From Archaeoglobus sp. JdFR-27 (GTDB taxonomy: Archaea; Halobacteriota; Archaeoglobi; Archaeoglobales; Archaeoglobaceae): a stretch of DNA of 64,000 nucleotides. The number at the start of each line of letters is the position of its first letter. Positions within the stretch are counted from its first letter, which is position 1. A program made the translations under genes and the position numbers. The DNA is taken from positions 62,001-126,000 of the forward strand of contig MTMO01000002.1 of the NCBI GenBank assembly GCA_002011235.1. The letters run 5' to 3'. Below the pieces are notes generated by a model. That model did not search any database. It was given only the letters and a program-made list of their open reading frames with translations, and was not told the origin of the DNA. Below, in pieces: positions 46,992-54,801 of this stretch.

Positions 46992-47444
46992 ATGATTCAA
47001 TCCCAGCAACTTATGCCAGTCGAAAAGGACAACTCAGATTCTGAGACTATCTTACACCTCGGCCCCATAATGCTGGATCAACCTGAAGAATACAGCTTTA
47101 AAGAATTGTTGATGAAGGCTATAGCCCTCGAATCTGGCAAGCTTTACTACTCGAATGGGAGGCTTTACATTCTTGATTACGATACGATTCATGGTGTGAT
47201 GGATGGAAAGTTTGCGATTGTCGAGATGATAATCGACTCATCCTTCTGTGAGGTTGGAGAGTACAGGCGATGGGCTCTTTACCACAGCAGCGAGGATGAG
47301 GTGGAGTATGTTGACGAAATAGAGGACATCAGAGGTGGAACAACAGTTCTGCCCGTGTTAAGAACGGGAAACAGGTTTATAAGGAAAATCGAGGAATATA
47401 TCGAGGAAGGAAAGTACAGATCTGCTGACACTCCAGATGTTTGA
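46992..47444 (+). CDS. Uncharacterised 150-residue protein
   Basis: I do not recognise this acidic soluble protein. It has a mixed alpha/beta pattern (SFKELLMKAIALESGKLYYSNGRLYILDYD, then VMDGKFAIVEMIIDSSFCEVGEYRRWALYHSS) and an acidic middle (EDEVEYVDEIED). The TATA element about 22 bases upstream and normal codon use support it as real. It stands between the decayed toxin locus and the TctA-like permease and has no obvious partner. Confidence 0.55.
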   Translation: MIQSQQLMPVEKDNSDSETILHLGPIMLDQPEEYSFKELLMKAIALESGKLYYSNGRLYILDYDTIHGVMDGKFAIVEMIIDSSFCEVGEYRRWALYHSSEDEVEYVDEIEDIRGGTTVLPVLRTGNRFIRKIEEYIEEGKYRSADTPDV

Positions 47445-49072: not shown

Positions 49073-49777
49073 TCAAAATTCTTCAAGAACTCTTTTCAAC
49101 CTCTCAACTGGCTCACCGATTTTATCTGCTATTTCCTCAAGTTCTTTCTCAGAATAACCTATAAAGAATTGATAAGATCTAAGAAATTCTGCCAGCATGA
49201 GGTCATCGTCCACATCCCAAGCGCCAGAATAAAGTGGATTTGAATCTTCAAATAGGAGATACATCTTTTTCAGGTCTTTACCCTTTGAAAGATCCTGTAA
49301 TCTCTGAAATTCTTGAGGATCGTGTTCTTCAAAAAACATGTTATCTGAGATTATTCTCGCCGCATCGCTTCTAAGCTTTTCAGCATCGTATTCCACACTT
49401 GGAGGAGAATTTCTCCTCACCATCTCATCTATTTCCTCCTTCGAGTACCTGAAGACAGAATCTCTTGAGGAAAGGTTCTCAGAAATTTCTTTGAGAAGTC
49501 TGAAGGTTTTCTCGTCTATTGGCGAGATCCTGGATTTTCCCCCGCTAAAAAGTCTAACAGAATAAAACTTCCCACTCCTTAAATCTCTCTTGGTGAGATT
49601 GCTAATTTCTTCAGGAGTCGCAAGAGCAGAAAGAATCAACCTGATTACGCAGTGTTCTTCATCCACCTTCCTTGAAGCTACTGCAATATAATTGAGAAAG
49701 AACTCTACCTCTAAAAGCTTGCTATCCCTTTCACTCGCGTAAACTTTGTATCCATATCGCTGTCTCTGTCTCTCCAT
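49073..49777 (-). CDS. Tyrosine recombinase-like protein without clear catalytic residues
   Basis: A 234-residue soluble protein. Residues 42-130 read like part of a tyrosine recombinase catalytic domain: RLILSALATPEEISNLTKRDL lines up with the usual L..TGLR.sEi..L...D., and SVRLFSGGKSRISPIDEKTFRLLKEI with the gKg.K.R.vPl strand region. The catalytic arginine is missing (ATPEEI in place of LR.sEl), and no HxxR or active tyrosine is evident. The C-terminal half (YEEFLRSYQFF, GYSEKELEEIADKI) is helical. It may be a DNA-binding relic or an unrelated protein; the resemblance needs a structure search. Confidence 0.45.
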   Translation of the reverse strand: MERQRQRYGYKVYASERDSKLLEVEFFLNYIAVASRKVDEEHCVIRLILSALATPEEISNLTKRDLRSGKFYSVRLFSGGKSRISPIDEKTFRLLKEISENLSSRDSVFRYSKEEIDEMVRRNSPPSVEYDAEKLRSDAARIISDNMFFEEHDPQEFQRLQDLSKGKDLKKMYLLFEDSNPLYSGAWDVDDDLMLAEFLRSYQFFIGYSEKELEEIADKIGEPVERLKRVLEEF

Positions 49778-49914: not shown

Positions 49915-50256
49915 ATGGCCCAAATAACTTCTATAAATACCTTTATTAAACCACATGCTTGCATCTTTTCTGTGATTGGACGAGTTAAGCATCCCTCAAT
50001 ACTCCAACTCAGAGGGATAAAGGAGGAGACCAAAAGGCAGATCATGAGTTACATGGAAAGAAAGTCGTTTAAATATTCAATCGAAAGAAAGAAAAACGGC
50101 TTTGACATATATTTCTCCGATGTAAACGAGGCTAGAAGGTTGATTTCAGTTCTAAGGAGACAATTCAACTTCGATTTGAAGATGAGTACGAAATATGCTG
50201 GGCTAAGAAAGGGCAGAGTGAGAGTTTTGTTTGTGTATTCGATCAGGATGAAATAA
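49915..50256 (+). CDS. Uncharacterised small basic protein
   Basis: I do not recognise this 113-residue basic protein. The conserved-looking part is residues 20-113 (SILQLRGIKEETKRQIMSYMERKSFKYSIERKKNGFDIYFSDVNEARRLISVLRRQF and the Arg/Lys-rich end), which could bind RNA. ATG 49915 is used here, but TATA-like elements lie between it and a GTG at 49972 (for example TTTATTAAACC about 25 bases before that GTG), so the protein may start at 49972 with 94 residues. Confidence 0.5.
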   Translation: MAQITSINTFIKPHACIFSVIGRVKHPSILQLRGIKEETKRQIMSYMERKSFKYSIERKKNGFDIYFSDVNEARRLISVLRRQFNFDLKMSTKYAGLRKGRVRVLFVYSIRMK

Positions 50257-50437
50257 AGGTGAAAATAGATACATAGATACAGATAGATGTAGATATGAGA
50301 ACAAAAATGAGGACCGAATCCCTTTAACTTGAATCCTCAACTTTAAATAACCCTCCTAAATTAAATGATTCTTAACAATTTCAATAACTTCAACAAAATC
50401 ACAACAAATCAATAAATCCCAATCCATAGGTGAAAAA

Positions 50438-51505
50438 TTGGAAATCAAATTGGAAGAATTCAAAAAACTGAGGAAAGGATTAAGGTACATATCCGATCTA
50501 TCGGGATTTAATTACCCGAGAGGGATGCTATTCACGATTCTCACCCAGAAAAAAGTGGACCAGGTTAAGCAGGATTATGGAAAGGTTTGTGATCAATTGG
50601 AAGAACTCTCAAACTTCTGGAACACCCACAAGAAAATACCGAACTGGGTTAGGTTGACTCCAATGATGAGGGTCAGGCTTTTGCTGAAGGCCCTTGAGTA
50701 CACCAAAAGGGAGATCAGGGATTCACTCAATGATCCAGAGAAGATCGATGACGCCAACCTTAGAAGGTTGATCTGGAAATCCGTCTTCACCGACTACATC
50801 TATTCCCCCCTTGCTGTAAAACATCAATTCGCCAGAGGCAGATTGGGGGAGCTGATAATCGAGAGATGGCTTGATAACAGGGACATAATCTATAAAACTG
50901 AAAAAGATCTTAGGAAAGAGAGCATAAAAACCCCCGATTTTTACTTCTCAGATCCGATACAGATCAACGGATTTGAAATAAACTGGATAGAGAGCAAGGC
51001 CCTTTTTGGAGATCCAAGAACCCATTGGATCTACTGGAAAAAGCAATTTTCGAAGTATCTCAATCTCTTTGGCCAGGGATTCGTTGTTTACTGGTTTGGA
51101 AAGATCAAAGAGCTGGATAAAAACGTGAAAGTCTGGGAGGAAGAATTCTTTAAAGATGATCTCATGCAGAATCTCCTTGACATGAAGATATTCACATTGG
51201 GTATCAAAGGCAAATCTAAACAGGAAATTGTGAGGATTCTAAGAAAGTTCTCGGTCTCATCGGTGTTCGAAGTGGGAGACGTAGACACAGGCTTGGAGAA
51301 AGAAATGGATGTAGACATAGTGCATCTGGATTTCGAGAACCCCTATTCCAAGGAGTTTATTCAGGCTGTTGGCAGAGTTATTGACGCCTACTCAAAAGGC
51401 AGAGTAATCCTGATCGGCCTGAACAGAGACTGGAGGAGATGTAAGAGAAGAAATCTCTCACTTACCCTTCGAAACATGGGTTTTAAAGTTTTTCACTTGA
51501 GGTAA
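50438..51505 (+). CDS. CDIN1/C15orf41-like TPD-motif nuclease-fold protein
   Basis: A 355-residue protein whose centre has the TPD signature: RGRLGELIIERWL, then KTPDFYFSDPIQINGFEINWIESKALFGD near residues 165-190, followed by YWKKQFSKYLNLFGQGFVVYWFG. The glutamate of RGRLGE, the aspartate of TPD and IESKA give the PD-(D/E)xK nuclease pattern. The same blocks define the eukaryotic CDIN1 (C15orf41) family, mutated in congenital dyserythropoietic anaemia type I. The N-terminus (residues 1-120) is helical and may bind DNA; the C-terminus is a Rossmann-like domain. Function in archaea is unknown. Confidence 0.8.
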   Translation: MEIKLEEFKKLRKGLRYISDLSGFNYPRGMLFTILTQKKVDQVKQDYGKVCDQLEELSNFWNTHKKIPNWVRLTPMMRVRLLLKALEYTKREIRDSLNDPEKIDDANLRRLIWKSVFTDYIYSPLAVKHQFARGRLGELIIERWLDNRDIIYKTEKDLRKESIKTPDFYFSDPIQINGFEINWIESKALFGDPRTHWIYWKKQFSKYLNLFGQGFVVYWFGKIKELDKNVKVWEEEFFKDDLMQNLLDMKIFTLGIKGKSKQEIVRILRKFSVSSVFEVGDVDTGLEKEMDVDIVHLDFENPYSKEFIQAVGRVIDAYSKGRVILIGLNRDWRRCKRRNLSLTLRNMGFKVFHLR

Positions 51506-52498: not shown

Positions 52499-53944
52499 CT
52501 AACCCTCAAGAACCATTGACTTAATCTCCTCCCAAATCCTCAACGCCCTTTTTTCAATCTCAGGATCCATTTCCACAACTTCGGGCCACTCCCTCTCAAA
52601 ACCTTCCTCCTTCCACTTCTTTGTCGCATCTATCCCAAGCTTTCCTCCATAATTTTGCAGGTATATAGAGTGATCCAGAGAGTCTATGGGAGCGCCCTGG
52701 ATGACTACAAGATCTCTGGAGGGGTCGAACCTGCTCGTAACGGCCCAGAGAACCTCCCTAAGGTTCTGAACGTTAACGTCATCGTCAACAACGATTATAA
52801 CCTTAGTTAGAGAAAGCATTCCAATACCCCACAACGCAAACATCACCTTCTTTGCATGTCCAGGAAAGCTTTTTCTTATCGAGACGATCGCAAGGTTGTG
52901 GAATGTAGCCTCTACAGGAAGGTTTATGTCCACAATTTCGGGAAAGAGCATTCTTAACACTGGAAGAAAAATTCTCTCCGTTGCTTTCCCGAGCCAAGCG
53001 TCCTCCATTGGTGGCTTGCCAACTACAGTAGCATGATAGATCGGATTTTCCCTCCGAGTTACAGCTGTGACATGGAAAACCGGATAAGGTTCAGCTGGTG
53101 TGTAATAACCCGTATGGTCTCCAAAAGGGCCTTCCATTCTTAATTCATCGGTTTTGACATATCCCTCCAAGACTATTTCCGCATTAGCCGGAACTTTAAG
53201 ATCGACCGTTTCGCAGTTAACCAGCTTTACCCTCTCCTTTCTTATGAAGCCCGCGAACATGAACTCATCCAAGCCTAAAGGCAGAGGAGCGGTTGAAGCG
53301 TAAAGAATGGCAGGATCAACGCCTATAGCAACTGCAACCTCAAGCTTATCTGATTTTGCTTTCCTGAAATGTTCAGCCCCATGCTTGTGTATCTGCCAGT
53401 GCATGCCAGTGGTTTTAGCATCAAACACCTGCATCCGATACATTCCTGCGTTGAAGTTTCCGGTTTCAGGGTCCTTTGTAATTACAACAGGCAAAGTTAT
53501 GAATCTGCCAGCATCTCCCGGCCAGCATTTCAGAATTGGGAATTTCATAAGATTTGGCTCTTCAACAACTTCCTTACATGCCCCTTTCTTCACTGTTTTG
53601 GGGATGAAGCTCATAGCATCCTTCAAAACGGAGAGACTCTTTATCCCCTCAATAATTCCCGAAGGTCTAACCTTTGTCATTCCGATGAGCCTCTCTCCGA
53701 TTTCCTCAAATCTATCAACCTCCAAGGCCATTTTCATTCTTTTTTCAGTTCCGAAGGCATTCATAAGCACGGGAATGTTGTAGCCCTTGGAATTCTCGAA
53801 CATCAAAGCTTTTCCACCAGCCTTGACCGCTTTCTCAGCGATAACTGTCATCTCAAGAATGGGATCGACCTCATGTTTTATCCTTACGAGCTCATCTTCC
53901 GTCTCGAGTTTGTTTACAAAATCTCCGAGACTATCATAGGGCAT
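52499..53944 (-). CDS. UbiD-family decarboxylase
   Basis: A 481-residue member of the prenylated-FMN-dependent UbiD family, which removes or adds carboxyl groups on aromatic or unsaturated acids. It has the cofactor region FNAGMYRMQVFDAKTTGMHWQIHKHGAEHFRKA near residues 165-195 and the acidic site EGPFGDHTGYYTPAEPYPVF near residue 278, with VVDDDVNVQNLREVLWAVTSRFDP later. Known archaeal uses include quinone synthesis and aromatic acid metabolism; neither can be chosen from the context. The UbiX partner that makes the cofactor is not in the window. Confidence 0.92.
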   Translation of the reverse strand: MPYDSLGDFVNKLETEDELVRIKHEVDPILEMTVIAEKAVKAGGKALMFENSKGYNIPVLMNAFGTEKRMKMALEVDRFEEIGERLIGMTKVRPSGIIEGIKSLSVLKDAMSFIPKTVKKGACKEVVEEPNLMKFPILKCWPGDAGRFITLPVVITKDPETGNFNAGMYRMQVFDAKTTGMHWQIHKHGAEHFRKAKSDKLEVAVAIGVDPAILYASTAPLPLGLDEFMFAGFIRKERVKLVNCETVDLKVPANAEIVLEGYVKTDELRMEGPFGDHTGYYTPAEPYPVFHVTAVTRRENPIYHATVVGKPPMEDAWLGKATERIFLPVLRMLFPEIVDINLPVEATFHNLAIVSIRKSFPGHAKKVMFALWGIGMLSLTKVIIVVDDDVNVQNLREVLWAVTSRFDPSRDLVVIQGAPIDSLDHSIYLQNYGGKLGIDATKKWKEEGFEREWPEVVEMDPEIEKRALRIWEEIKSMVLEG

Positions 53945-54172: not shown

Positions 54173-54583
54173 CTAAATCTCCGAAATGTGCACGACAAAA
54201 TTGAGATTTACTTTATCTATGAGTTTTTTGTCAGATGTGTAGAACTTGGAGTTTAAACTCTCTGCCAAGGCAATGTAAGAAGCGTCATAAACTGTAATTT
54301 CTTTCTCTACAGCTACTTCAACAGTTCTCTCAGCCAGCTTTCCCGATAAGGAGTGCAACTTAAAGCCATAAAGACTCAGAGATCTCGCAACTATCTTGAG
54401 TTCATCTTTAGTGAAGAGCCCAGTATATTTTAGAGCGTTCAGAACTTCATAAGGCATCAGCTCCGGAGATACGATCTCAATGCTACCATTTATGTAATCA
54501 TCCCTCAACTTTCTTGCATTCTCAGTATATATTTCATCCACAAACCACTTCACAATCACACTGGCATCAGCCACTACTTCCAT
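54173..54583 (-). CDS. vapC: VapC-type PIN-domain toxin
   Basis: A 136-residue PIN nuclease. The start is ATG 54583 behind GGAGGGACAGCAG, which lies in the end of the antitoxin gene. The four acidic residues of the active site are present: D6 (VADASVIV), E46 (PYEVLNAL), D100 (VYDASYIAL) and D118 (FYTSDKKL). VapC toxins cut tRNA or rRNA and are held by the VapB protein encoded just upstream, here with a 10-base overlap. The pair looks intact. Confidence 0.92.
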   Translation of the reverse strand: MEVVADASVIVKWFVDEIYTENARKLRDDYINGSIEIVSPELMPYEVLNALKYTGLFTKDELKIVARSLSLYGFKLHSLSGKLAERTVEVAVEKEITVYDASYIALAESLNSKFYTSDKKLIDKVNLNFVVHISEI

Positions 54584-54801
54584 CTGCTGTCCCTCCAAGC
54601 GCGAATGATTTCTGTCGTATCTCTGTCGGATTTCTTCCTTACTTTTTCATTAATCAGAAGAGCTTCAGCGATGTTTCTACTCTCGAGTTTCTCAACGATT
54701 TCTGTCAGTTCCCTCCTTATTATTTCACTCCAGTTAATATATGGGAACCTTTCCATCTTCTTTTTCAATTTATCGTCGATTCTTACACTCACTACAGGCA
54801 T
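54574..54801 (-). CDS. vapB: VapB-type ribbon-helix-helix antitoxin
   Basis: A 75-residue protein. The N-terminus MPVVSVRIDDKLKKKMERFPYINWSEIIRRELTEIVEKLE is a ribbon-helix-helix DNA-binding domain, and the C-terminal tail (EKVRKKSDRDTTEIIRAWRDSRWK) is of the kind that wraps round the toxin. It neutralises VapC and probably represses its own operon. TATATACTTCTCGATTG directly before the ATG, on the minus strand, holds a TATA box (TATATACTT), so the transcript may be leaderless or nearly so. Confidence 0.88.
   Translation of the reverse strand: MPVVSVRIDDKLKKKMERFPYINWSEIIRRELTEIVEKLESRNIAEALLINEKVRKKSDRDTTEIIRAWRDSRWK

Follow-up and report, generated by a model that had tools for sequence, protein, structure and literature searches.

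CDIN1 (C15orf41) is mutated in an inherited human anaemia, congenital dyserythropoietic anaemia I, and is a suspected nuclease. An archaeal open reading frame (ORF) described as its homologue raises the question of whether it is a true family member and, if so, what its product acts on. The ORF lies in a stretch of 64,000 nucleotides from Archaeoglobus sp. JdFR-27 (contig MTMO01000002.1, positions 62,001 to 126,000), which we call the window and whose coordinates we use throughout. Archaeal homology to human C15orf41/CDIN1 is already known, since orthologues have been reported from Euryarchaeota and, according to the passage cited, are absent from other archaeal phyla (PMC7092493). The window protein itself is an ordinary member of this known archaeal family. 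What we add here is a C-terminal domain variant, a QxxxY signature, an Nmd3-like companion, and recurrent repair and translation neighbours. We tentatively read the protein as a metal-dependent nuclease of DNA maintenance, a prediction to which we give slightly less than an even chance.

Family membership, active site and predicted fold

The ORF is a genuine member of the TPD/CDIN1 family, as a preliminary description of this DNA had proposed. The comparison with TPD (PF14811) suggested there gave 132.3 bits (E 1.3e-38, cut-off 27) over residues 105-229 in a Pfam scan, in which no other family reached E 1. The sequence blocks on which the proposal relied were all located in the ORF, with TPD at residues 165-167, INGFEINWIESKALFGD at 176-192 and FGQGFVVYWFG at 211-221. 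The TTG start aligns with the starts of relatives in an alignment of 41 TPD family members (A1). The Shine-Dalgarno label of the AGGTGA before it and the TATA-box label of TATAAATA further upstream (Table 1) are our assumptions from the consensus of each signal. The gene is single-copy in the host genome (2.36 Mb). Chance is excluded because the family occurs in 114 of the 392 sampled genomes of the window's phylum and its core is conserved in the 41 aligned relatives.

Table 1. Features of the TPD gene and its upstream region, in window coordinates.
Feature	Position	Strand	Basis or remark
TPD/CDIN1-family ORF, 355 aa, TTG start	50438..51505	+	PF14811 132.3 bits; AF2 model
Presumed Shine-Dalgarno-like AGGTGA before TTG	50428..50433	+	ends four bases 5' of TTG
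N-terminal all-helical region, residues 1-118	50438..50791	+	seven helices in model
TPD (PF14811) nuclease-like domain, residues 105-229	50750..51124	+	Pfam
E138, Glu in helix 124-147	50849..50851	+	invariant 41/41 and 105/105
T165-P166-D167, TPD motif with presumed metal-binding Asp	50930..50938	+	invariant 41/41 and 105/105
E185-S-K187, (D/E)xK motif	50990..50998	+	invariant 41/41 and 105/105 (latter partly by construction)
Q203xxxY207, QxxxY motif	51044..51058	+	invariant 41/41 and 105/105
C-terminal alpha/beta domain, residues 243-355	51164..51502	+	alignment A1; structure search
Small basic protein, stand-alone Nmd3 eL22-like domain	49972..50256	+	PF04981; fold match to Nmd3
Presumed TATA-box-like TATAAATA	49932..49939	+	40 bases before GTG of Nmd3-like gene
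Divergent neighbour of Nmd3-like gene, weakly XerA-like	49073..49777	-	15.7 bits to recomb_XerA_Arch, cut-off 220

The family-model search covered the window's phylum (392 genomes) and 14 control genomes, one of which, Methanosarcina acetivorans, matched. Within the phylum, the family to which the window belongs (f1) had matches in 51 of its 55 genomes, family f5 in 59 genomes and family f31 in four. We infer that f1 is Archaeoglobaceae and f5 Methanosarcinaceae. Named relatives were found with a pattern over WIESKA, which left 80 loci out of 107 relatives. Those nearest to the window protein belong to an Archaeoglobales MAG, at 91 percent identity, and to an Archaeoglobus sp., consistent with the earlier label of a thermophile protein.

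No relatives of the TPD protein were matched by tblastn among 50,697 phage and 72,556 plasmid records, nor were any found in two scans of viral contigs, and a mobile or viral origin of the gene was rejected. This absence says little about the viruses of eukaryotes because family proteins of giant viruses exist in a collection of viral predicted structures (BFVD). There, TPD/CDIN1-like proteins are encoded by giant viruses of amoebae, which form a possible route between the domains of life.

Six presumed active-site residues, E138, D167, E185, K187, Q203 and Y207, are invariant in all 41 relatives of A1. So are they in each of the 105 distinct archaeal proteins from 121 loci (105/105). For the ExK block this second count is partly circular, as the pattern used to choose 80 of the 121 loci covers W183-F190, but E138, D167, Q203 and Y207 are not part of it. 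The claim that all PD-(D/E)xK residues are present held for the presumed ones, E138, D167, E185 and K187 (41/41). QxxxY has been described as common to RecB-like nucleases (PMC4454674, passage cited), so by its invariant QxxxY the TPD family carries a RecB/Cas4-type signature. Neither the preliminary description nor the cited parts of the literature on the human protein mention this signature.

The AlphaFold2 model of the protein has a mean pLDDT of 94.6 and a pTM of 0.91. In its core, E138 lies on helix 124-147 and D167 directly precedes strand 168-176; strand 179-187 bears E185 and K187, helix 193-211 bears Q203 and Y207, and strand 214-218 follows. A PD-(D/E)xK core is expected to show this order. 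The structure prediction suggested in the preliminary description yielded a confident model with helices and strands in nuclease order. A core of this kind would make the protein a nuclease that depends on a divalent metal: E138, D167 and E185 may hold the metal, K187 may activate water, and Q203 and Y207 could help to position the strand in the manner of RecB-like enzymes. The N-terminal helical region is a candidate for binding nucleic acid; for the human protein, an N-terminal helix-turn-helix is named in the cited text of PMC7261414.

Three BFVD structures matched the model below E 0.001 (E 1.1e-9, 1.3e-8 and 2.7e-7). The best was an unannotated viral protein (E 1.1e-9, TM 0.57/0.66), and the other two are named 'TPD domain-containing protein' (Powai lake megavirus) and 'CDAN1-interacting nuclease 1' (mimivirus). 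These names support the CDIN1 identity by fold. Among PDB sequences, single-sequence and profile searches gave no solved structure of a relative better than E 0.19, which counts against a nuclease of DNA maintenance. A search of PDB structures with the whole model gave no match passing E 0.001 (best E 0.028). On a second look, all PDB structure matches listed covered residues 241-355, and no nuclease was among them. Because these matches were filled by the C-terminal domain, they are not evidence against a nuclease fold.

Archaeoglobaceae members have about 50-125 extra C-terminal residues, which members from f5 and f31 lack (A1). In the window protein they form an alpha/beta domain, which matched the N-domain of the class III methyltransferase CbiL (8xj3; Z 11.3, rmsd 2.8, 104 aligned, 14 percent identity) and the dual-specificity phosphatase TpbA (4r0s; Z 9.3, rmsd 2.1, 94 aligned). 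Dual-specificity phosphatases carry an HCxxxxxR signature, and none of this type was seen in the aligned members (A1). Because the signature was not seen there and methyltransferase N-domains score equally high, a catalytic phosphatase role was rejected and we name no role for the domain.

Holliday junction resolution and the human protein

The preliminary description had suggested an overlay on Holliday junction resolvases, and a role of this kind has been proposed for human C15orf41. If the protein were such a resolvase or a branch-specific endonuclease, it might replace the missing Hjc in Methanosarcinaceae, where Hjc gave no match in any of the 59 genomes that carry TPD. Methanosarcina acetivorans, the control genome with the family, likewise gave none. 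A similarity of human C15orf41 to Hjc is also stated in the literature (PMC7261414, passage cited). We nevertheless consider this role improbable. Pfam gave no Hjc (PF01870) match in the TPD protein up to E 1, and a profile of residues 100-240 compared with 21 Hjc proteins of related genomes reached an hhalign probability of 0.2 percent, which is not significant. The best local alignment of the two profiles sets both ExK motifs in register and is itself non-significant. Compared with 19 Cas4 proteins of related genomes, the same profile also reached a non-significant 0.2 percent.

The distribution of Hjc argues in the same direction. Two Hjc matches, one clear (117.2 bits) and one weaker, lie in the window's genome away from the TPD gene, and 53 of the 55 genomes of f1 match Hjc, two of them weakly. 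A simple replacement of Hjc was therefore rejected for the window's family, since Hjc is also present there; Methanosarcinaceae are left open. Across the phylum, 181 of 392 genomes match Hjc and 211 do not. Because most of the Hjc-less genomes also lack TPD, a general swap of TPD for Hjc is not supported. Besides the f5 genomes that have TPD without Hjc, many in the phylum have neither gene.

Anaemia mutations of the human protein are described in papers at Y94, L178 and H230. According to the cited section of PMC7261414, recombinant C15ORF41 with a Codanin-1 fragment had no activity on single- or double-stranded DNA, flaps, forks, Holliday junctions or RNAs. This counts against a junction resolvase, and the inactivity of C15ORF41 on many DNA and RNA substrates, alone or with the fragment, also counts against a nuclease of DNA maintenance. 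No nuclease activity had been published for human CDIN1 by 2026, as the cited text of PMC13370696 has it. The human biochemistry is thus as unsettled as had been claimed. The same silence favours a protein that retains the nuclease fold and serves, without cutting, as a nucleic-acid-binding scaffold or regulator. We think this very unlikely, because a protein that does not cut would hardly keep all six residues invariant in 105 of 105 proteins, a count that for the ExK block is partly built in by the choice of loci.

Gene neighbours and possible substrates

The TPD gene had been said to stand alone beside an unknown basic protein. This did not hold, as the upstream protein is a conserved neighbour and a stand-alone copy of the Nmd3 eL22-like domain. 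Its GTG start, chosen from the alignment, gives 94 residues with a net charge of +16; from an ATG at 49915 it would have 113. It matched NMD3 (PF04981) in Pfam with 39.9 bits (cut-off 24.9), over profile positions 145-242 of 243 only. Its model (pLDDT 88.9) matches Nmd3 residues 155-249 in pre-60S particles (Z 11.7, rmsd 2.5 over 88). The fold search had 15 rows at a Z of 9.0 or more, 14 from Nmd3 and one from a designed protein (Z 9.8), and the next row had a Z of 6.1. The small protein shares the eL22-like part of NMD3 by profile and fold, whereas the N-terminal and eIF5A-like domains are missing, and a separate full-length NMD3 is encoded in the same genome.

Downstream and on the opposite strand lies the gene that had been called a hexuloisomerase. 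This hexuloisomerase-like gene has a SIS match in Pfam, and its RuMP_HxlB score stayed below the cut-off (110.9 against 160).

The divergent gene on the other side of the Nmd3-like gene encodes a 234 aa protein that weakly resembles the XerA catalytic region. It occupies this position in 11 TPD loci and in nine of the 14 loci where the Nmd3-like gene lies away from TPD, and is a steady partner of the Nmd3-like gene. Elsewhere in the window, a 150 aa protein with no Pfam match (46992-47444, +) has relatives near the TPD gene in seven loci, the window included. A PIN-domain protein (Pfam PIN, 49.6 bits) overlaps a small antitoxin-like ORF that has no Pfam match (54173-54801, -), and the two are likely a VapBC pair. 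The tRNA-Pro (anticodon agg) called by ARAGORN at 52710-52796 (-), inside a UbiD gene (52499-53944), is probably a false positive.

Among 105 distinct loci, 30 have the Nmd3-like gene upstream of TPD in the same orientation. Some match to its product was found in 53 of the 55 f1 genomes, in a few to full-length NMD3 only. Both genes occur in 50 f1 genomes; in 33 of them they share a contig and lie no more than about 1 kb from each other, and in 17 they are apart. In f31, the Nmd3-like protein is encoded at a site away from TPD (4/4 genomes). The pair is not obligatory, because f5 has TPD alone, with no match to the Nmd3-like protein in 10 of 10 searched TPD-bearing genomes, and the sister family f2 has the Nmd3-like protein without TPD (2/2 genomes).

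This companion argues for the main alternative, in which the TPD protein is an RNA nuclease of ribosomes or translation. It would act on rRNA, tRNA or ribosome-bound mRNA and be led to the large subunit by the Nmd3-like domain. The eukaryotic holder of this nuclease would be Codanin-1, a CNOT1-like scaffold. The direct upstream position in 30 of 105 loci, the proximity in 33 of the 50 f1 genomes with both genes, and a fold match whose first non-Nmd3, non-designed row falls to Z 6.1 all point this way. In yeast, the eL22-like domain of Nmd3 occupies the ribosomal P site (PMC5536393, passage cited), and in all four f31 loci aRF1 lies 9-51 bases upstream of TPD. Codanin-1 is likened to CNOT1, an RNA-decay scaffold, in the cited portions of PMC11911400 and PMC7092493. 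Against an RNA substrate stand the f5 and f2 genomes that have one gene without the other and the DNA-repair neighbours that dominate in Methanosarcinaceae. We regard this alternative as rather unlikely on balance.

Other recurrent neighbours, identified by Pfam and NCBIfam scans of representatives, include several repair and replication genes. An HhH-GPD glycosylase gene is found upstream in the same orientation as TPD at 31 of the 105 loci, 29 of them in Methanosarcinaceae and two, Nth-like, in Archaeoglobaceae. The 29 are directly upstream of TPD, with ORFs that often overlap, and none is in a record named Methanosarcina. In the two Archaeoglobaceae loci (L048 and L096), the Nth-like, Nmd3-like and TPD genes overlap end to end, with Nth one gene further from TPD. 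Archaeal RecJ lies 166 bases upstream in four loci, and aRF1 accounts for four more, those of f31. Rad50 is convergent with TPD in 26 loci (23 within 400 bases) and MCM in four, though convergence is a weak sign of shared function. Representative scores were 1195 bits for Rad50 (cut-off 1087), 596 for aRF1 (234.7), 311 for the MCM domain (23.3, Pfam), 60.5 for HhH-GPD (26.2) and 329.8 for RecJ_archaeal, which is below its cut-off of 360.

The glycosylases of the two families are nearest to different models. In Methanosarcinaceae the nearest model was 3-methyladenine DNA glycosylase (119 bits, below the cut-off of 192), and at L048 it was Nth (190.4 bits, below 211.7); the L096 counterpart was scanned with Pfam only. 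A single ancestral glycosylase-TPD pair is not supported, and the two pairs look like separate adjacencies. A further conserved family, unmatched in Pfam and with four cysteines close to the N-terminus (L057:6174-6908 and relatives such as L066:6325-6810), is encoded upstream of TPD in 36 of the 105 loci, usually with ribose-phosphate pyrophosphokinase further upstream.

We compared direct neighbours with genes three to six places off in nine representative arrangements picked by the analyst, using the longest non-overlapping ORFs. Repair and replication genes made up 4/18 direct neighbours against 3/59 (raw p 0.048, one of five tests), which speaks for a role in DNA maintenance; the post hoc setting of the classes from Pfam and NCBIfam names counts against it. 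Translation and tRNA genes (Nmd3-like, aRF1, ThiI, TGT-like) were at least equally enriched, with 6/18 against 5/59 (raw p 0.016, or 0.09 when the Nmd3-like gene enters only once), and this also counts against that role. Together with TFE, the repair/replication and translation/RNA classes reached 11/18 against 8/59 (raw p 0.00015). In all these counts, several control genes (for example L032 +5, L049 +5, L057 -3 to -5 and L066 -3) were classed from the sequence start or a scanned relative. Replication and repair genes often adjoin translation genes in archaea (PMC2643942, passage cited). Because such mixing is common, a mixed DNA and translation neighbourhood is not unusual, and it weakens the case for an RNA substrate. 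The safe reading is that the TPD family lives among information-processing genes, in a context that fits DNA or RNA alike.

Our preferred reading remains a nuclease of DNA maintenance. The PF14811 score, the six invariant residues, the nuclease-order core with its matches to virus TPD/CDIN1 proteins, and the glycosylase, Nth, Rad50, RecJ and MCM neighbours in several lineages argue for it. The enzyme would most likely cut damaged or structured DNA in repair or replication, and if it is a nuclease, DNA is a more likely target than RNA. In Archaeoglobaceae the Nmd3 eL22-like protein encoded beside it, which is a small domain of RNA-binding type, would probably help to target or regulate it. We also considered, as a long shot, that CDIN1-family proteins are ribosome-linked RNA-surveillance nucleases, with a stand-alone Nmd3 P-site domain as their adaptor to the large ribosomal subunit in Archaeoglobaceae and the CNOT1-like Codanin-1 in that role in animals. 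If so, congenital dyserythropoietic anaemia I would partly be a disease of the ribosome or of RNA surveillance.

Relation to known systems

In the open-access literature searched, we found no papers that join CDIN1 and NMD3, or C15orf41 and Archaeoglobus, so the evidence from TPD neighbours may be unused. Thermophile members offer testable hints, as they combine an intact predicted active site and a confident model with a small co-encoded partner and neighbours from repair or translation. Candidate substrates or partners suggested for the CDIN1 family are AP-site, alkylated and branched DNA, and the large ribosomal subunit and rRNA.

Among nucleases, the TPD protein shares with Hjc (PF01870) an ExK motif of the PD-(D/E)xK type, but the two have no significant sequence or profile match and are separate genes in the same genome. 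With RecB and Cas4 it shares QxxxY after ExK. The Cas4 of the same genome has its Q, with the Y four on, 12 residues past the Lys, although no significant profile match joins the TPD protein to Cas4. The TPD proteins of Methanosarcinaceae (about 260 aa) are 31-36 percent identical to the window protein and share its invariant residues. They lack the C-terminal domain, and an HhH-GPD glycosylase or an uncharacterised protein, not the Nmd3-like gene, is encoded upstream.

Codanin-1, the partner of the human protein, is stated to be absent from archaea in the cited passage of PMC7092493. CDIN1/C15orf41 and the window protein share the TPD motif, the presumed catalytic residues, and a helical N-terminus followed by a nuclease-like core. 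The window protein differs by some 110 aa of additional alpha/beta domain at its C-terminus and by the Nmd3-like neighbour of its gene.
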